Below are positions 11,625 to 42,402 of a stretch of DNA of 64,000 bases, piece by piece; the first letter of the stretch is position 1; each line of letters begins with the position of its first letter. Both the position numbers and the translations under genes were made by a program. The stretch is taken from contig NZ_JAGKSQ010000006.1 of the NCBI RefSeq assembly GCF_017939705.1, positions 186,001-250,000 on the forward strand. Direction: 5' to 3'. Under the pieces are notes generated by a model that saw only the letters and a list, made by a program, of their open reading frames with translations, was not told the DNA's origin and searched no databases. This DNA comes from Halalkalibacter suaedae (GTDB lineage: Bacteria > Bacillota > Bacilli > Bacillales > Bacillaceae_D).

Positions 11625-11640
11625 TAATGGAAAAAGGATG

Positions 11641-12045
11641 GGACAAAAGTGATTTAACAAATAGAAAATCCGAATAATAATAGTTGGCGGAAGTAAACCG
11701 CTCCTGAAATATACTACGCTTTCCGCGGGAAGCCGGTGAGCCTCCTCGTCTACGCCTGCGGGGTCTCACCTTTGGCTTTTGCATGAGGCCACTGAAAAAG
11801 TCCCTTTGGGCAGGTGCGAGGAAGCAGCAATGGCTCCACACGTTGCACGCCTTCTATGAGAAACCCACTCATAGCAGGCTTAAGACAATGCAACGGTTTG
11901 GCTCATTGCTTAAAGGCCACTAAAGAAAGGTGAAGATCACACCTTTTTCAGTGGCCTCTTTTGCATCCCGCAGGAGTCTACGTATATTTCAGCCGCTATG
12001 TGATTGCTTTATTCAGTAATACAGTTAGACACTTTAGTTATGTCC
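11641..12045 (+). repeat. Dispersed intergenic element, copy A (carries inner insertion)
   Basis: Outer element running from GGACAAAAGTGATTTAAC to ACACTTTAGTTATGTCC, with imperfect inverted ends and an inner inverted pair around CTGAAATATAC...CTTTCCGCGGG and TCCCGCAGGAGTCTACG. It is homologous to 32053-32256 (short form) and 34905-35311 (long form). It is non-coding: the open frames inside it are not conserved between copies. Confidence 0.9.
11785..11958 (+). mobile_element. 174-bp MITE-like insertion inside copy A
   Basis: Ends are inverted repeats GAGGCCACTGAAAAAG and CTTTTTCAGTGGCCTC. It is flanked by the 8-bp direct repeat TTTTGCAT at 11777-11784 and 11959-11966. Internal hairpins include CTATGAG...CTCATAG. 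The same 174-bp sequence is inverted in copy C; copy B lacks it. There is no transposase, so it would be moved in trans. Confidence 0.85.
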
Positions 12046-12154
12046 AATCCTCTCTCATATTTCATTAATCTCCCTCGATGATTTGACATTATATCCCTTT
12101 TTATTAGCGTGCAAAAAGGTATTTACAACTTATTATGACATGCTTCCCGATAAG

Positions 12155-14151: not shown

Positions 14152-14619
14152 ATGAGAAAGACTACACTTTATTTAACAATCGTGTTCGTTCTTTTTTTAA
14201 GTGCATGCTCTCTCAACGAGGATGTAGCTAAGCGATATAAACAGGAACTGCCTTTAAGGGTAGAAGTCATGATCCCCGAAAGATTTTCTGAGGGGAAACC
14301 TGAGTCTATTGATGCCGTTCTTACTCAAAATGGTGAAAGAGTCGTAAATCCTAGCTTTGTTCATTTTGAGATATGGAAACAAGATGGATCTGTTCGTTAT
14401 CCAATGGAAGAAGCCGAAGACATCGGCGATGGAACTTACCGTATAACAAAGGACTTTGAGCAAGATGGTTTGTATTTTGTCAAAGTACACGCAAGTAGTG
14501 CTGGATCCACTATTATACCGACAACCCAGTTTGTTGTTGGTGGGCTTTCAGCTAGTGACATTGAATATTTAGAAAAGGGAATGAAAGCCGAGACTCCCAC
14601 TAAAGAAACCCATCATTAA
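14152..14619 (+). CDS. YtkA/FixH-like lipoprotein
   Basis: 155 residues from ATG 14152, chosen because GGAG lies 9 bases upstream and the result starts MRKTTLYLTIVFVLFLSAC, a clean lipoprotein signal with lipobox LSAC; an ATG at 14137 would add five residues and spoil the signal. The mature part (about 35-135) is an immunoglobulin-like YtkA domain with the usual GDGTYRI and GLYFVKVHA strands, and ends in KETHH, a His pair that might bind metal. Such proteins often accompany PepSY or copper-handling membrane proteins, as here. Exact role unknown. Confidence 0.82.
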   Translation: MRKTTLYLTIVFVLFLSACSLNEDVAKRYKQELPLRVEVMIPERFSEGKPESIDAVLTQNGERVVNPSFVHFEIWKQDGSVRYPMEEAEDIGDGTYRITKDFEQDGLYFVKVHASSAGSTIIPTTQFVVGGLSASDIEYLEKGMKAETPTKETHH

Positions 14620-14743: not shown

Positions 14744-14787
14744 GAGGCCACTAAAAAAGGGAAGATTTCACCTTTTTTAGTGGTCTT
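14744..14787 (+). terminator. Terminator hairpin related to the inner mobile element
   Basis: GAGGCCACTAAAAAAGG and its inverse with a short loop, ending in TTAGTGGTCTT. It lies 125 bp after the YtkA-like gene. The sequence matches the hairpin at one end of the 174-bp insertion. Confidence 0.7.
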
Positions 14788-16971: not shown

Positions 16972-17697
16972 ATGAAAGTAAAGGAAGTTGCCGACTTAGT
17001 GGGAATTAGTGTGCGCACACTACATCATTATGATGAAATCGGACTATTAATCCCAGAAGAAACCACTGAAGCTGGTTATCGAGTATATTCTGACAGGAAT
17101 CTCGAAACCCTGCAGCAAATTTTATTTTTTAAAGAACTCGGCTTCCCTTTGAAGAAAATCAAAGAAATCATTGATAACCCGTCATTTGATCGACATGAAG
17201 CATTAAAAATCCAACATAACATGCTGCTAGAAAAAAAGAGCCGACTCGAAAAGATGATCGGAACTATCGAAAAAACCATTCAACATTCGAAAGGAGAAAT
17301 ACCAATGTCAAATCAAGAAAGATTCGAAGGCTTTGACTTTAGCCATAACCCCTATGAACAAGAAGCAAGAGAAAGGTGGGGCGATCAAGCTGTTGATGGA
17401 GCAAATGAAAAAACGAAAAACATGACTGCTTTTAATCAAGAAAAGTTCAATGAGATCTACCGCAATCTTGCAGCCATTCGCCATCTCTCTCCCGCTTCCA
17501 AAGAGGCTCAAAAGGAAATAAAAGAATGGTATCAGTTCCTAAACAAAATCGGGAACTATTCCCTTGAGGCATTTAAGGAACTAGGTCAAATGTACGTAGA
17601 TGATGAACGCTTCACTAAGAACATTGACCAATTTGGTGAAGGCTTAGCCAAATTCATGCGTAATGCTATGGAAGTGTATGCAGACAGACAGGACTAA
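16972..17697 (+). CDS. MerR-family regulator with TipAS ligand domain (Mta/TipA-like)
   Basis: 241 residues. The winged-helix DNA-binding domain (1-70, KEVADLVGISVRTLHHYDEIGLL then GYRVYSDRNLETLQQI) is followed by the dimer coiled coil (about 75-110) and a TipAS-type antibiotic-recognition domain (about 118-240). Mta of B. subtilis, which activates multidrug transporter genes, has this architecture and similar length. AGGGGGCG precedes ATG. A MerR-type promoter in front implies autoregulation. No transporter gene is adjacent; the ABC exporter at 4.8-6.8 kb has a normal 17-bp spacer and is not an obvious target. Confidence 0.9.
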   Translation: MKVKEVADLVGISVRTLHHYDEIGLLIPEETTEAGYRVYSDRNLETLQQILFFKELGFPLKKIKEIIDNPSFDRHEALKIQHNMLLEKKSRLEKMIGTIEKTIQHSKGEIPMSNQERFEGFDFSHNPYEQEARERWGDQAVDGANEKTKNMTAFNQEKFNEIYRNLAAIRHLSPASKEAQKEIKEWYQFLNKIGNYSLEAFKELGQMYVDDERFTKNIDQFGEGLAKFMRNAMEVYADRQD

Positions 17698-17709
17698 AAT
17701 AATTAAGCA

Positions 17710-17751
17710 AGGCCACTGAAAAAGGTAGATATTCACCTTTTTCAGTGGCCT
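17710..17751 (+). terminator. Terminator hairpin of the MerR gene, element-derived
   Basis: Arms AGGCCACTGAAAAAGGT and ACCTTTTTCAGTGGCCT, 12 bp after the stop. The arms match the end of the 174-bp inner mobile element. Confidence 0.82.
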
Positions 17752-17795
17752 CTAATCAATAAGAAGAACCGTTGCTTTCCATCTGTGCTTTGTAG

Positions 17796-17993
17796 AACTC
17801 TTTACGGACATATGATCCCTTAAATCTCAATAATGCCCCTTCTTTAGCATGCTTGCGGACATATGATCCGTTATTTCATATAAATCTTATAGAAATGACA
17901 GTCATAACGCTAAATAACGGATTAAATGTCCGTTACTGCATGATTTTGCGTCCTTTTCTCATTGTTAACGGAACCAATGTCCGCAAGTAACCT
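17796..17993 (-). repeat. Dispersed ACGGA/TCCGT dyad element, copy 2 (inverted)
   Basis: Reverse complement of the elements at 8168 and 25258, with the same four dyads in order. Nearby, 18051-18059 is a run of nine C. No gene is supported in 17752-18105. Confidence 0.88.
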
Positions 17994-31859: not shown

Positions 31860-32052
31860 TTACCTATAATATATAATATTTTTAAAATGAAATATGAAAA
31901 TCTGAAAGTGAAATAAGCTTGATTCATTCTAAAATGTAGTTAATTCATTATCTAAGATGAATTTTTTCTCCTCTTCACAAAGGGATCTCTTATGTTGATG
32001 ATGTTTATCAAACTGCACCTTGATTTTATTGCCTTCAATCATAAAAAGGCCT

Positions 32053-32256
32053 GAGACAAAAGTGATTTAACTAATAGAACATCCAAAAAATAGTAGTTGG
32101 CGGATGTAAACCGCTCCTGAAATATACTACGCTTTCCGCGGGAAGCCGCTGAGCCTCCTCGAGCTTTGGCTTTTTCATCCCGCAGGAGTCTACGTCTATT
32201 TCATCCGCTACATAATTGCCTTGTAAGTGATTTTAGTTAGACACTTTATTTATGCC
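32053..32256 (+). repeat. Dispersed intergenic element, copy B (empty site)
   Basis: Short form, about 204 bp, of the element at 11641 and 34905. At 32171-32178 it has TTTTTCAT once, exactly where the other copies carry the 174-bp insertion between duplicated 8-bp sites. Confidence 0.9.
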
Positions 32257-32274
32257 CCCGCCTCATGCTCCTTA

Positions 32275-34480: not shown

Positions 34481-34904
34481 TATTCAAATTACTTTGCTCT
34501 TCAAACCCTATACAATACCAACCAATTAATTAGTACTATTAGCTTATATATTAACAACAATGAGATACCTTTAACAAGTAAACTTATTAACAACTGCCCA
34601 ACATAAAAGAATCCCCTGAAATCTCATAGACTTTCGATGACTCATACCTTGAATAGATTCTACATTACTCCTAATAGATTTATGAATTGTAAATAATGAT
34701 CAAACACCAATAATAACAAACGCTTACATTTCAACCTGAGGAATATTCTAGTAGCAAAAACTTAGTGCTCTAATTTTATCATATTTTCGAATAGTCTATC
34801 CTAATTTCTAATAGAATCCTTAAACAGCCGACAATCTAAAAAAAGAACTTTGTTGAAGATTAAATGGTCTATAGAAATAGTGCTGTATACGTTAAATAAG
34901 ACTA
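34481..34904. other. AT-rich intergenic stretch
   Basis: No open frame with a ribosome binding site, no strong hairpin and no repeat recognised. Confidence 0.5.
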
Positions 34905-35311
34905 GGACAAAAGTGATTTAACTAATAGAAAATCCGAACAATGATAATTGGCGGACGTAAACCGCTCCTGAAATATACTACGCTTTCCGCGGGAAGCCGG
35001 TGAGCCTACTACGCCTGTGGGGTCTCACCCTTGGCTTTTTGATGAGGCCACTGAAAAAGGCGTGATTTCCACCTTTTTTAGTGGCCTTTAAGCAATGAGC
35101 GAAACCTTTGCATTCTCTTAGGCCTTGCTATGAGTGGGTTTCTCATAGAAGGCGTGCAACGTGTGGAGCCATTGCTGCTTCCTCGAATCTGCTAAAAGTG
35201 ACTTTTTCAGTGGCCTCTTTTTGATCCCGCAGGAGTCTCCGTATATTTCATCCGCTACGTAATTGCTTTGTTCGGTATTTCAGTTAGACACTTTTTTTAA
35301 GTTCTAGTTCC
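34905..35311 (+). repeat. Dispersed intergenic element, copy C (carries inner insertion)
   Basis: Long form, same orientation as copies A and B in its outer parts (GGACAAAAGTGATTTAACT ... GTTAGACACTTTT). The middle is the 174-bp inner element in the orientation opposite to copy A. Confidence 0.9.
35044..35217 (-). mobile_element. 174-bp MITE-like insertion inside copy C, inverted
   Basis: Same length and ends (GAGGCCACTGAAAAAG...CTTTTTCAGTGGCCTC) as 11785-11958 but reverse-complemented. It is flanked by an 8-bp direct repeat TTTTTGAT at 35036-35043 and 35218-35225, whose sequence differs from the duplication in copy A. Confidence 0.85.
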
Positions 35312-35371
35312 AGCCCTCTAATATATAATTATGAAATAGATCATTTAGATCACTCTTCTACTCTCATAAAT

Positions 35372-36362: not shown

Positions 36363-38474
36363 TTATTCTACTGCCATGTAAAATAGATTTGCCACATCAT
36401 CTTTTGTGATTACATGTGTGCCTGAATTAAGCGATACAGTGACAATACCATTTACAATCGGATAGCTTGTCCCATTTACCTTGATTTCTGCTCCATCTTC
36501 AGTGTTGAACACTAATGTTAATGTGGACTCTTCAGTCGTCGCAAACTCAATCCTAGTTGAACTTTCAATCTTAAGGCATTGATTTAAAGTTAACCCATTA
36601 TATTCTACCGTCCCTTTGCTAGATGATAAATTTCCTTCAATAGCGAAGTAGTTGCTGACTTTTCCATTTGTCGTGAAATTATGAGAGTATGCTTCTGACG
36701 GATCCGTTGGGTCTGTTGGAGGCGTGGGGTCAGTCGGATCTGTCGGGTCTGTTGGTGTCGGATCTGTTGGACTTGGGTCTGTTGGCATTTCTGTGGAATT
36801 GCCCCCTACAGATATGAGGCTTGTCTTGTAACCTTTAATTTTTGCCATAAGCTCTGAGTTGAGTTTGTAGGATTTGTCATCAACCGAGTCATTAAATTCC
36901 CATGTAAAGTCTCCATTATTTAGGCGCCCAGCTTCTGCTGTCACAATTTGCTCAACATCGCTTACGTTGTCAATACTAGAACCATTGACACCAAGATCTA
37001 TCCTAGTATCAAAGTTATTATACGTTGTCCCACCGACTAATGTTTTGTAAGAGCTTGGAACGGTTTCATTTCTCGACGATGCTAGATACGCATCAAATGA
37101 TTTGGCATTAGCTGATGCTGTTCCCTCATTTGAATTTGCGTAAATAAGACTTGCCGCATCGACAACAATATTATTATATGCCTTAATCATACCTCCATCT
37201 TCACCTGAGAATGTACCATCGCCTAATGCATCAGTACCTTGTAATGAGCTCATCATTGGATTCTTTGCATTTCTAAAATAATTCGATTCTACAAATGCCG
37301 AACTTCCTGTTGTTGTACCAATACCATATTTTGAAATGCCATCAAAGAAATTATTATAGACATGGACTGACGCTACTCTTATACGTGGATGGCGCGAGTC
37401 TGAATGATCAAACCAGTTATGGTGAAAGGTAACAAAGAACTCTGATGATTCACTCAACCCAACTAGAGAAGCTTTTCCTGAATCCCAATAATGATTGTGA
37501 GAGATTGTGATATGTGTTGAACCCTTTTTAAGATCTGTTGAACCATCACCTTTTGCTTGGTCAGAATCCGATCCTGCCGTCCCGTAGAAAAGATCATTGT
37601 GATGCAACCAGATATTTGCGTTCCCTGTATCAAGAGAAATGCCATCATCAGGGAATAATGCCATACCTAGGTTTCGAACTTCTACATTCCCGCCATTTCT
37701 GACTAATATTCCCCACCCGTAAGCATATGCATCTTCTCCGATACCTTCTAATGTTATATTCATTTCTGAATAACTCGATTTACCTTTCACTTCAAGATAA
37801 CCATTACCATTAACTTGTCCACTCATGTCCCCAGAAGTGACTTGTCCAATAAATCTGATTGCAAGCGGTGTCGTATCATATCCCTTTTGTCGTAATGAAA
37901 GAATTTCGCTTATACCAACACCCGTCTGTACATCACCTGAGCTATTAACGATTACATCATGAGAAACAGTTTTCGCAGTCTCCGATGTTACATAGATAAC
38001 TTGAGCCCCGTCCTTCATTGTCCCGTCCTCATTATATGCACCTGAACCCGTACCATACTTCGAGTTATCAGCAAAAGCAAAACCAGATCTATCATGCTCC
38101 GTTACTGATATTACACCCGAGGAAGCGCTTACTTTTTGACCGTTAGAAAGAATCGCATCAACCTTCATGACATAATCTCCAGCTGCAAGTCCTACTGCAT
38201 CAGCTCTCCAAAATGAAGCGTATCTGCGAATCAATTCATTGTCAATTTGCTCATATTGACTATCTGGTGCATTAGCATGTTTGACATAGACATTATATCC
38301 TTCAGCATTACTTACTGGAGACCACTCTATATATGCCGTTTCAAACCAACCTCCACTGTTAGTTATAGAAAGACTAGCAGCATGTAATGTCTGACTTGCG
38401 AATCCGCATACCAGAAATAGCATAAAAGAATAGATCAATACTCGACTAAACCCTTTTTTAATCATAGCCCTCAC
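36363..38474 (-). CDS. Secreted pectate lyase, PL1 family, multidomain
   Basis: Cleaves polygalacturonate by beta-elimination outside the cell. About 703 residues from GTG 38474, chosen because GGAGGG lies 6 bases upstream and a signal peptide follows (RAMIKKGFSRVLIYSFMLFL, cleavage near HAAS). Then a fibronectin-III-like domain (about 30-125), the PL1 beta-helix (about 130-570) with calcium-site acidic residues and the conserved catalytic-arginine region HSDSRHPRIR, a Pro-Thr-Asp linker of PTDP repeats (about 585-615), and a C-terminal beta domain that is not recognised (possibly carbohydrate binding). A c-di-GMP class I riboswitch and terminator lie upstream, so expression is probably under c-di-GMP control. 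Confidence 0.92.
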   Translation of the reverse strand: MRAMIKKGFSRVLIYSFMLFLVCGFASQTLHAASLSITNSGGWFETAYIEWSPVSNAEGYNVYVKHANAPDSQYEQIDNELIRRYASFWRADAVGLAAGDYVMKVDAILSNGQKVSASSGVISVTEHDRSGFAFADNSKYGTGSGAYNEDGTMKDGAQVIYVTSETAKTVSHDVIVNSSGDVQTGVGISEILSLRQKGYDTTPLAIRFIGQVTSGDMSGQVNGNGYLEVKGKSSYSEMNITLEGIGEDAYAYGWGILVRNGGNVEVRNLGMALFPDDGISLDTGNANIWLHHNDLFYGTAGSDSDQAKGDGSTDLKKGSTHITISHNHYWDSGKASLVGLSESSEFFVTFHHNWFDHSDSRHPRIRVASVHVYNNFFDGISKYGIGTTTGSSAFVESNYFRNAKNPMMSSLQGTDALGDGTFSGEDGGMIKAYNNIVVDAASLIYANSNEGTASANAKSFDAYLASSRNETVPSSYKTLVGGTTYNNFDTRIDLGVNGSSIDNVSDVEQIVTAEAGRLNNGDFTWEFNDSVDDKSYKLNSELMAKIKGYKTSLISVGGNSTEMPTDPSPTDPTPTDPTDPTDPTPPTDPTDPSEAYSHNFTTNGKVSNYFAIEGNLSSSKGTVEYNGLTLNQCLKIESSTRIEFATTEESTLTLVFNTEDGAEIKVNGTSYPIVNGIVTVSLNSGTHVITKDDVANLFYMAVE

Positions 38475-38624
38475 TAAAATCCCTCCATTATTTAAATTAA
38501 AAAACTTCAACCTACTAGAATGACTACCTACAAATCCAAAATAATCATTAGACCATTCCATTCACCTCCTCAAATAAGAATCTCGTTATCATTTCATACT
38601 GTGCAAATATAAATCTAGGAAAAT

Positions 38625-38652: not shown

Positions 38653-38697
38653 TTGCATACTCAAGCCAGATGTTGACATTACCCTAGCCATTTATAT

Positions 38698-38780
38698 GTG
38701 CAACCCGACGATCATAGCAAATTGCTTTACCTTAGACTCGTAGCTTTGCGTCCCTATTTTTCAATAGGTTTGCCCTATGT
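38698..38780 (-). promoter_or_regulatory. Cyclic-di-GMP class I (GEMM-I) riboswitch aptamer before the pectate lyase
   Basis: On the minus strand: GGGCAAACC, a hairpin CCTATTGAAAAATAGG with GAAA loop, GGGACGCAAAGC, then a CTAAGG-containing second stem and GGGTTGC. These are the conserved blocks of the GEMM-I consensus as in the Vibrio Vc2 RNA. The 3' GGTTGCA can pair with TGCAACC at the foot of the downstream terminator, giving a switching scheme. Whether ligand turns the gene on or off cannot be decided by eye. Confidence 0.88.
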
Positions 38781-39002
38781 AGTATCATGCTTTGTTTAGT
38801 TAACTTTACCAAAATTTGTAATATATGTTCAATAATTAGATAGCACTATTTTTAATAATGCTATTTAAGTCATTATTCTATTAAAAATCGATAAAGTACT
38901 TTTAATAGGGTGTTCCTACCTAGTTTTATATTAGAAACGATTGCGTAGGGTGATGAAGTGGGAAGAATGACTTAGGATGTAAAAAGTTAAAGGACCGTAA
39001 AA

Positions 39003-40262: not shown

Positions 40263-42014
40263 CTATACTTTTAACGTTTTTACAGCTTCCTCAAGATTAT
40301 TAATTAATTTTTTCATATCCTGTGCTGAATCAACAATAGTATCGAATGAAACCTTCTGATCTTTAATACTATCTGTTAGTGTAATAACTGTATCGCTATT
40401 TTGTGTGGTTAAATCTGTAAATTGTTCAAACGTAGATGTGATTTCTTGATTTTCTGCAGACATTTGTTCTGTTGCTGCAGATATTTCATCCATTTGAGCA
40501 GACACATCCCGTGCAGAGTCAAGAATATCAGCAAAAAGGACTCCTGTCTCTTTTACAAGAGATACACCGGCGTTCGCGTATTTGACTCCCTCATTAATTG
40601 AAGTAACAGCTTCCTCTGTCCCATTTTGTATATAATCAATTAATGATTTAATTTGCTCTGCTGAACCTTTTGATTGTTCCGCTAGCTTTTTCACTTCATT
40701 AGCAACAATCGCAAATCCTCTACCATGCTCCCCTGCTCGAGCCGCTTCAATCGAAGCATTTAATGATAAAAGACTTGTTTGTTCTGAAATGCTTGTAATC
40801 AGTCCAACAATCGAATGAATTTCATTAGAACGTTCATTAAGATTTCGGATAATCTTTTCTGAGTTTTGTGACGATTGATTAATCAATCCCATTTGTTTTC
40901 CTACTTGATCTACTGACTCATTCCCTTGCAATGCACGACTCTCAGTTTCTTTTGATCTTTCACTGACATTAGAAATATTACGAGCAACCGTCTCCACACC
41001 AGCAGATAACTGTTGCAACGAAGAGGAAATCTCATAAGCAGATCCACTCTGAGAATCAAATCTTCCTGACATTTCTGACACGTCTTTAGTAATACTATCC
41101 ATTTTCTCACTAGTTCTGTTTACAGAAGCGAACAATGAGTCATAGTTACTTGATGTATTCTTCGATGCCGATTCAATAGAATTAATTAACCTACTTATAT
41201 TATCTACCATCGCGTTAAAGCTTACAGCTACCCGACCAATTTCATCATTCGACTCTCTTAATCTCACATCGTAATTACCTTCTGTGACAGACTCAATCCC
41301 ACTAGCAAGCTCACCAATTGGTTTATATAGCTTTCCTAACAAGAAATATTCCAACACGCCAATAACCACAACGACAATTAATAGAATTATACCTACAGTC
41401 ATTAGGATATTTCGTTGACTATCTACAAAGCCTTGTGCATTAAAGTCCATTCCATAATAAGCATAAACATTACCATTTTCATCTACATACGGTTTAGCAA
41501 CTGTAATCCATGTACCTAATCCATCTGAGTAAATATCAGAAACGACTATTTCCTTTTCAGCCGTCAGCTTGTTAACTAGCTTGACAATATTATCAGGCTG
41601 ACCATACATATCGCCAACTGTTAAATCCGCTTCCGTTTTAAGTATGTCTAATAATCCTGATGGTGCAGCAACTAAACTCGTTTCTGATCCATTTTCTAAC
41701 TCAGTACCAAAAATATAACCCTGTGCAACTGAAGGTTGATAGTTTGATAATTGATCAAAATGACTAACCAAACGTTGAGTCGCTTCACTATTCTCATCAT
41801 CTGTTCCCATTACTTCGATTACATCTTTAGGATCAATATCCTGTGACCATGTTTCAACAATTTGTTCAGCATCTGTTACAAGATCGTCTAACATGAAATT
41901 AGAATTAACAGAGTAACTAACCCCAGTTATCAAAATAGCAACTAAAGTAGTTGTGATGATACTAAATAAAATACTTTTTGTCTTTAATGATATATTAGAA
42001 TACCATTTTCTCAT
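40263..42014 (-). CDS. Methyl-accepting chemotaxis protein
   Basis: Membrane chemoreceptor, 583 residues. First helix at about 13-32, extracytoplasmic sensor domain (about 35-200, dCache-like, with [18 protein letters not shown]), second helix (about 203-223), HAMP (about 224-278), then the coiled-coil signalling domain with the hairpin tip [21 protein letters not shown] (followed by [18 protein letters not shown]). It would signal through CheW/CheA to the flagellar motor. It is monocistronic. Its leader carries a c-di-GMP class I riboswitch and terminator; chemoreceptor genes are known targets of that RNA class. The ligand is unknown. Confidence 0.95.
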
Positions 42015-42288: not shown

Positions 42289-42313
42289 ACACAACCTAGT
42301 AGTTGTTGTATGA

Positions 42314-42402
42314 AAAGCAACTGGCAGACTTATACATATGTCTAGTATTTAGTCCCTATAGTTTTGCGTCCTATTTTTTCAAATAGTTTGCCCATATTTA
42401 AT
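42314..42402 (-). promoter_or_regulatory. Cyclic-di-GMP class I (GEMM-I) riboswitch aptamer before the chemoreceptor
   Basis: Minus strand: GGGCAAAC, hairpin CTATTTGAAAAAATAG with GAAA-type loop, GGACGCAAAACTA, GGGACTAA and a final CCAGTTGC. The block order is identical to the aptamer at 38698-38780, with differences inside the stems. Confidence 0.85.

Follow-up and report, generated by a model that had tools for sequence, protein, structure and literature searches.

Repeated insertion into one site of a dispersed repeat in Halalkalibacter suaedae: perhaps two nested IS1182-type MITEs, the inner one guided by hairpin shape

A dispersed repeat occurs three times in a 64,000-nucleotide stretch of Halalkalibacter suaedae DNA (hereafter "the window"). 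Copies A and C each contain a 174-bp segment with inverted ends that is reverse-complemented between the two, and the third, copy B, has an empty site. How did one segment come to occupy the same position of two repeats in opposite orientations, what moved it, and what marks the site? A sequence-only reading of this locus had proposed two independent insertions of a small element that targets another repeat.

Nested copies and duplicated target sites

Direct reading and BLAST confirm the segment in copies A and C, at 92% identity, and its inversion between them (Table 1). The ends of this inner element, GAGGCCACTGAAAAAG and CTTTTTCAGTGGCCTC, are exact in both copies and form 16-bp perfect inverted repeats. 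Direct reading likewise bears out the octamers duplicated at the borders in A and C, and the single octamer in B. Within copy A, the inner element overlaps no ORF of ≥100 aa in the ORF list of the window, and its single-strand DNA fold has a z-score of −5.8. It is short, non-coding and bounded by terminal inverted repeats, i.e., it has the properties of a MITE. The outer repeat had been placed at 11641, 32053 and 34905; it is present there, but its true ends lie slightly further out, at about the positions in Table 1. We placed these ends by eye, guided by 51 copies with both ends recognised (51 of 80 empty copies; consensus by eye, GAGGCTGGGACAAAAGTG..AGTTATGTCCCAGCCTC). In copy A, the outer repeat has imperfect terminal inverted repeats, with the left end AAGGATGGGACAAAAG; in copy B, on reading, the upper hairpin is shortened.

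Table 1. Repeat features in the window (coordinates count from its first nucleotide)
Feature	Coordinates	Strand	Remarks
Outer repeat, copy A, with insert	11634..12052	+	Ends by eye from family ends
Left target duplication of copy A	11777..11784	+	TTTTGCAT
Inner element in copy A	11785..11958	+	Ends GAGGCCACTGAAAAAG / CTTTTTCAGTGGCCTC; direct reading, BLAST
Right target duplication of copy A	11959..11966	+	TTTTGCAT
Second solo hairpin, same kind as that at 17709	14744..14787		Downstream of ORF ending at 14619
Solo 44-bp hairpin akin to right end of inner element	17709..17752	+	12 bp past end of ORF 16972-17697
Outer repeat, copy B, empty site	32046..32264	+	Ends by eye
Unoccupied target octamer of copy B	32171..32178	+	Single TTTTTCAT
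Outer repeat, copy C, with insert	34898..35318	+	Ends by eye
Left target duplication of copy C	35036..35043	+	TTTTTGAT
Inner element in copy C	35044..35217	-	Inverted relative to A; 174 bp, 92% identical; reading, BLAST
Right target duplication of copy C	35218..35225	+	TTTTTGAT

Filled and empty outer copies occur across the H. suaedae genome, a 4.32-Mb draft in 30 contigs, in which the window occupies C27:186001-250000. A 405-bp composite query has at least 69 matches there (40 of 256 candidates scored), and an exact pattern finds 97 empty outer sites. The 16-bp inner end, with up to three mismatches, occurs 10 times in the window against 0.58 expected; in the genome, the insert end with up to two mismatches has 144 matches, against five for a reversed control. 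From the genome we collected 40 neighborhoods of inserts or ends and 80 empty sites. The comparison of empty sites took in 84 of the 97 exact-pattern sites, and comparisons of distance and fold used 83 empty and 14 filled copies, one copy (L157) being excluded as too short.

At gathering thresholds, the only Rfam matches in the 64-kb window are two c-di-GMP-I riboswitches, and its repeats thus fall into no curated RNA family. Both riboswitches are on the minus strand, one (38696-38784) upstream of ORF 36363-38561, which is pectate-lyase-like from reading its translation, and the other (42313-42402) upstream of ORF 40263-42014, chemotaxis-receptor-like on the same basis. A plasmid search gave four records, from Priestia and Niallia, with the match limited to a short core of the outer repeat.

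Among the copies collected, 14 complete inserts of 173–176 bp, seven per orientation, retain both outer flanks. When these are tabulated by orientation and duplication, the left flank equals the right in 14/14, and the duplications are specific to the copy. The 8-bp length that had been claimed applies to 11 of the 14; the other three duplications are of 9 bp, and these are exactly the three copies with a 7-nt loop. Nine kinds of loop occur among the filled copies, each faithfully duplicated, and two randomly drawn empty loops would agree with a probability of 0.087. The loop spectrum of the 84 empty copies resembles that of the filled ones. A 710-bp insert with looser ends in another outer repeat (L233, in the region of G000:C11:650710) has a 10-bp duplication, GCTTTTGCAT, together with an 8-nt loop, which breaks any simple rule relating loop to duplication length. 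This insert has no clear transposase match and, by eye, holds a hairpin repeat resembling the targets in genome G015 (see below).

Mismatched flanks had been named as a sign against insertion. They are absent from the 14 intact copies and present in damaged ones: in L014, L016, L017, L020, L023, L024 and L043 the outer flank is lost, cut or mismatched on one side. Mini hairpins of 44–46 bp also occupy the outer-repeat site, with matched flanks in three of four (L029, L036 and L038) and, by reading, unmatched flanks in the fourth (L032). These mini hairpins and the first six damaged copies stand outside the 14, and L043 and L035 are incomplete.

Could the outer repeat instead have contained the segment from the start, with copy B having lost it and recombination at its inverted ends having flipped it in copy C? 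Such ends make inversion possible in principle, and filled copies do occur at many places. However, loss and inversion would not yield flanks that agree within copies and differ between them in 14 of 14 cases. Nor does this account fit the coincidence of the three 9-bp duplications with the three 7-nt loops, the full transposons at similar sites in relatives (see below), or the distances between inserts and between their hosts, which are uncorrelated over the 14 copies (Mantel r = −0.02, p = 0.54). We regard it as extremely improbable; the copy-specific matched flanks contradict it.

A second alternative is that each orientation goes back to one founding insertion, after which outer and inner element spread together as a composite. 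For the seven plus-orientation copies, the correlation between insert and host distances is borderline (r = 0.51, p = 0.05), so that some common history is possible among them, whereas the seven minus-orientation copies (r = −0.55, p = 0.96), like all 14 together, show none. Spread from two founders is also hard to reconcile with nine loop types, or with inserts no more than 2.3% apart that lie in opposite orientations in hosts 10–21% apart. The closest inserts, L009 and L019, are 0.6% apart and oppositely oriented, and their hosts differ by 21%. Over the 10 of 91 insert pairs that are no more than 3% apart, the mean host distance is 15.4%, against 16.9% over all pairs. For each of the 14 filled copies the nearest outer repeat is an empty one, but with 83 empties to 14 filled copies this counts for little. 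Spread as units is very unlikely. Matched flanks specific to each copy, and inserts that are not co-inherited with their hosts, mean that the inserts are independent insertions, repeated at one site in both orientations. The two opposite insertions proposed for copies A and C are thus upheld, and elsewhere in the genome near-identical inserts stand in opposite orientation in distant hosts.

To find an allele of copy A with an empty site, we searched 13 genus genomes for the transporter gene that lies upstream of this copy. Twelve matched, and the outer motif (with up to one mismatch) was found in 0/12 loci. The transporters are at most 82% identical over their full length (85–86% for fragments), so orthology of the spacer is unlikely. 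At one locus, L250, a single match resembling the inner end lies upstream of the transporter gene.

The solo hairpins of the window (Table 1) follow directly after genes, the one at 17709 after an ORF that is MerR-like by reading of its translation and without matching flanks by eye. They may be terminators co-opted from a mobile element. More broadly, selection and not transposition might have spread the inner elements, as transcription terminators or regulatory hairpins; the position of both solo hairpins (14744 and 17709) and their resemblance by eye to bidirectional terminators speak for this, but an insertion step is needed to account for duplicated targets and for a site that is fixed within a dispersed repeat. 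We consider spread by selection highly improbable. Transposed elements could still serve secondarily as terminators.

Candidate partner transposons and the origin of the outer repeat

A full transposon with the ends of the inner element was to be looked for, and one was found in relatives, as elements of 1.7–1.9 kb that fall by sequence in the IS1182 family and have 8–9 bp duplications; in the H. suaedae assembly no intact copy was found. PF13751, the domain of IS1182 transposases, is matched in nine of 13 genus genomes, with no match in H. suaedae. One of the relatives, G006, has a degenerate 815-bp IS1182 copy with nearly the same ends, at the same place in an outer-type repeat, with one mismatch in its 9-bp duplication. 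A 104-aa fragment of this copy, used as a query, has matches in 10 of 41 family genomes and finds full-size elements in two other genera. In the H. suaedae assembly, the same search finds only two degenerate fragments with stops and no intact transposase. Contig C12 of that assembly starts with what resembles, by eye and by comparison with L071, the end of an IS1182-type element (L035, G000:C12:1-300), so copies of such an element may be collapsed in the assembly. In L035 this IS1182-like end adjoins a mini hairpin that itself sits in an outer repeat, which would make three levels of nesting.

We compared eight IS1182-type elements: five from G015, two from G022 and the one from G006. The five in G015 (1831–1881 bp) have exact 16-bp ends and perfect 9-bp duplications. 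Those in G022 have two mismatches at the left end and perfect duplications, of 9 bp in L108 (1695 bp) and 8 bp in L099 (1693 bp). Thus, the ends and duplication size of the inner element match those of IS1182-type elements. The full elements stand in front of hairpin arms similar to those of the outer repeat. L108 has an open 486-aa frame that matches the NCBIfam IS1182 model at 1.2e-106; its score of 357.5 bits, like those of L071 (394.8) and L069 (416.4), is over the curated cut-off of 270; the broken fragment of L115, from G015, falls under it at 201. The G015 frames are broken in both of two copies inspected. By eye, the inner element and the full elements have only their ends in common, and their interiors differ. 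Judged by sequence, then, relatives hold IS1182-type elements with identical or near-identical ends, the same duplication size and similar targets.

Beyond these genomes, 13 loci came from scanning named genomes, three of them with exact duplications: one in Evansella vedderi, where a 9-bp duplication precedes CCCGTAGGAGTC, and two in Lachnospiraceae. Two others, L122 (Lachnospiraceae) and L129 (Domibacillus tundrae), have both ends and no duplication, and in the remaining eight the second end is unrecognised or past the contig edge. Halalkalibacter wakoensis and H. okhensis have one junction each, one-sided, before CCCGCAGGAGTC; by eye, that of H. okhensis is the same sequence as a junction in G010. 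A motif-based pattern run over 41 genomes found 33 right-hand junctions in nine of them, giving 30 assigned loci. A left partner, with flanks matching to within one mismatch, was assigned for 15 of the 30 junctions (11 of them in H. suaedae), a figure that is a catalog and not a test because the assignment itself demands matching flanks. The other four paired elements are of 110 and 611 bp (perfect duplications) and 399 bp (one mismatch), together with the 815-bp copy.

Outside any outer repeat, the H. suaedae genome also has an element of 489 bp (L033, G000:C24:350260-350748) whose two ends are exactly those of the inner element. Its flanks are a near-matching 8 bp, TGATTTTG/TGGTTTTG, and there is no clear transposase match inside. 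By eye, its interior has a GGATCATATGTCCGTAA-like repeat in common with positions 17800-17980 of the window.

The outer repeat points to a second IS1182 subgroup, comprising L069/L262 (524 aa; NCBIfam, 1.7e-124), L263 and L282, with ends like GAGGCTGGGACAAAAC. The outer end GAGGCTGGGACAAAAG matches L262, L263 and L282 at 15/16 positions at one end and 14/16 at the other. Nine loci of this subgroup were examined; two (L264 and L283) have no end match, and four others have weaker or one-sided matches. The flanks of L282, AAAGATAAAA and TTTTATCTTT, form an inverted repeat and show no direct duplication, and those of the 51 outer repeats are, as in L282, A-rich on the left and T-rich on the right. 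No direct duplication above shuffled pairing was found at the borders of these 51 copies, and copy-specific inverted matching is only weakly above it (514/5000 as high). No relative of the L069 protein was found in the H. suaedae genome. With ends this alike, the outer repeat is itself probably, though not certainly, an IS1182-type MITE of the second subgroup, with the ends GAGGCTGGGACAAAA.

Taken as a whole, the inner element is very probably an IS1182-family MITE inserted by a staggered cut at an 8–9 bp site in the outer repeat, the latter being probably a MITE of the second subgroup. Under this mechanism, the 174-bp segment would be a non-autonomous derivative of an IS1182-family insertion sequence with the ends GAGGCCACTGAAAAAG, and an IS1182 transposase would act on it in trans. 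Staggered cutting of the 8–9 bp site would then leave the site duplicated. The ends of the inner element are nearly symmetric, and hence both orientations occur. We infer the mobilisation in trans, as we do the origin of the outer repeat and any recognition of a folded shape, the last of which is considered next.

Fold and sequence at the target

In the consensus fold of the 83 empty copies, the outer repeat is a nested stem-loop in which TGAAATATAC pairs with GTATATTTCA, continuing with a basal stem (CCGCGGGA/TCCCGC-GG) that is followed by the pairings GCC/GGC and GGTGAG/CTCACC. Where the basal stem gives way to the upper one, the target octamer bulges out on the 3′ side only. Insertion would fall, on this predicted fold, between an upper stem GCC/GGC and a basal stem CGGGA/TCCCG. 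The stems are nearly invariant across the empties, the basal stem included, and because of this invariance covariation gives no support there. At ~1.65 bits, two columns of the octamer rank with the most variable positions of the whole element. The bulge is highly variable even in empty copies of an otherwise conserved element (e.g., at 32171-32178 in the window); candidate explanations are past insertion and loss, or relaxed constraint.

One explanation of the fixed site is that it is chosen by primary sequence: the motif CCCGCAGGAGTC, next to a short variable site, would be what is recognised, and the hairpin would be incidental. The 30 nt after the octamer are almost invariant (mean entropy, 0.05 bits), and CCGCAGGAGTC, which is common to Halalkalibacter junctions, is exact in four of the eight IS1182-type elements and variant in the other four. 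The junctions found with the motif-based pattern carry no weight here because they were selected by that motif. Against a choice by sequence, the target of L100 is TCCACTAGGAGTC, and the opposite arm has changed to match: the L100 basal stem is CCTGTGGA/TCCAC-TAGG, compared to CCGCGGGA/TCCCGC-AGG in L115, so that both arms are changed. Similarly, the targets of L099 and L120 read CCCACAGAAGTC and CCCCAGGAGTC. In Lachnospiraceae, L121 entered an unrelated perfect hairpin (z = −3.5; 2/200 shuffles as low), although the other Lachnospiraceae target, that of L126, has a fold that is not significant (z = −0.8). We give recognition by primary sequence a serious chance, a little short of even.

The alternative is recognition of the fold. 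The targets in G015 belong to a different hairpin repeat, with the core GTTGAACTAA or similar. A similar bulge is predicted for the targets of L100, L109 and L115, with z-scores of −9.1, −3.8 and −2.9 (0/100 shuffles as low for each), and the fold at L118 has z = −2.0 (3/100 as low). Other folds are not clearly better than those of shuffled sequences (L120, −2.0; L123, −1.8; L108, −1.2; L099, −1.0; L098, −0.7). Folds with 45 nt per side are mostly uninformative because the repeat is cut off. The 3′ arm is a common sequence too, as the four exact occurrences of CCGCAGGAGTC indicate, and sequence recognition is therefore compatible with these targets. Hairpin geometry may be a signal as much as sequence is, with the shared motif as the competing candidate. 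A tentative and more specific reading is that this IS1182 subgroup would recognise an extruded hairpin with a one-sided bulge by shape, not by sequence, would cut in or around the unpaired bulge, and would duplicate it rather than replace the hairpin; a second IS1182-derived MITE family, at >100 sites, would supply a standing landing pad. We see this as a real possibility, but lean against it.

Comparison with known systems

Perhaps, then, the locus holds two nested IS1182-type MITEs, the inner one guided by hairpin shape. Like other bacterial MITEs, the inner element is short and non-coding, with terminal inverted repeats and duplications, and its partner insertion sequence is proposed from common ends. 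In the main text of the MITE review PMC10969869, as far as that text was available, IS1182 is absent. In the openly licensed literature, four short strings of these repeats have matches only in three papers, all unrelated by title, and "IS1182 family", "target site duplication" and "palindromic" occur together only in PMC5678879; ISfinder or subscription journals may contain a description.

Nesting of short repeats has a precedent in the pneumococcal BOX, RUP and SPRITE repeats, which are inserted into one another (PMC3049150; reviewed in PMC10969869). A single fixed nested site with copy-specific duplications does not appear for these in the available parts of both papers, and the organisms are different. 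Specific insertion into a dispersed extragenic palindromic repeat is likewise reported, in the accessible part of PMC1525189, for ISPsy8, ISPpu9, ISPpu10, ISRm22 and others, which enter REP elements. The species and repeats are different from ours; here, a MITE is inserted, and the target is probably mobile too.

The closest likeness is to the IS1182 family itself (NCBIfam NF033551), which includes the staphylococcal elements IS1272 and TnSha1. The likeness lies in the family of the partner transposase and in the palindromic or hairpin targets, for which PMC5678879 and PMC4923244, in the portions available, cite Siguier and colleagues. As described in those portions, IS1272 and TnSha1 insert into hairpins and delete part of the target, with no duplication. 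Target Z of TnSha1 received several independent insertions, in both orientations (PMC4923244, in the available part), as did the single target described here. Whereas the staphylococcal elements reportedly destroy the hairpins that they enter, the present insertions duplicate 8–9 bp sharply, keep the hairpin with its basal stem, and use one fixed site, i.e., hairpin replacement of the IS1272 type is not seen; the comparison concerns insertion behavior. A hypothetical path outlined in the available text of PMC5678879, in which insertion into a loop duplicates the loop, would resemble the present case, with a side bulge in place of the loop.

What is observed directly in H. suaedae is repeated, independent insertion at one site, in both orientations and with copy-specific duplications. 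A single genome thereby presents one target in a naturally occurring range of copies, some empty and some filled, in which the cut positions can be read, so that recognition of structure versus sequence in the IS1182 family becomes directly testable. Two repeat families, the inner very probably and the outer probably of MITEs, stand in a host-and-guest relation that leaves the genes of the host unharmed, which suggests that one mobile element can use another as a landing pad.
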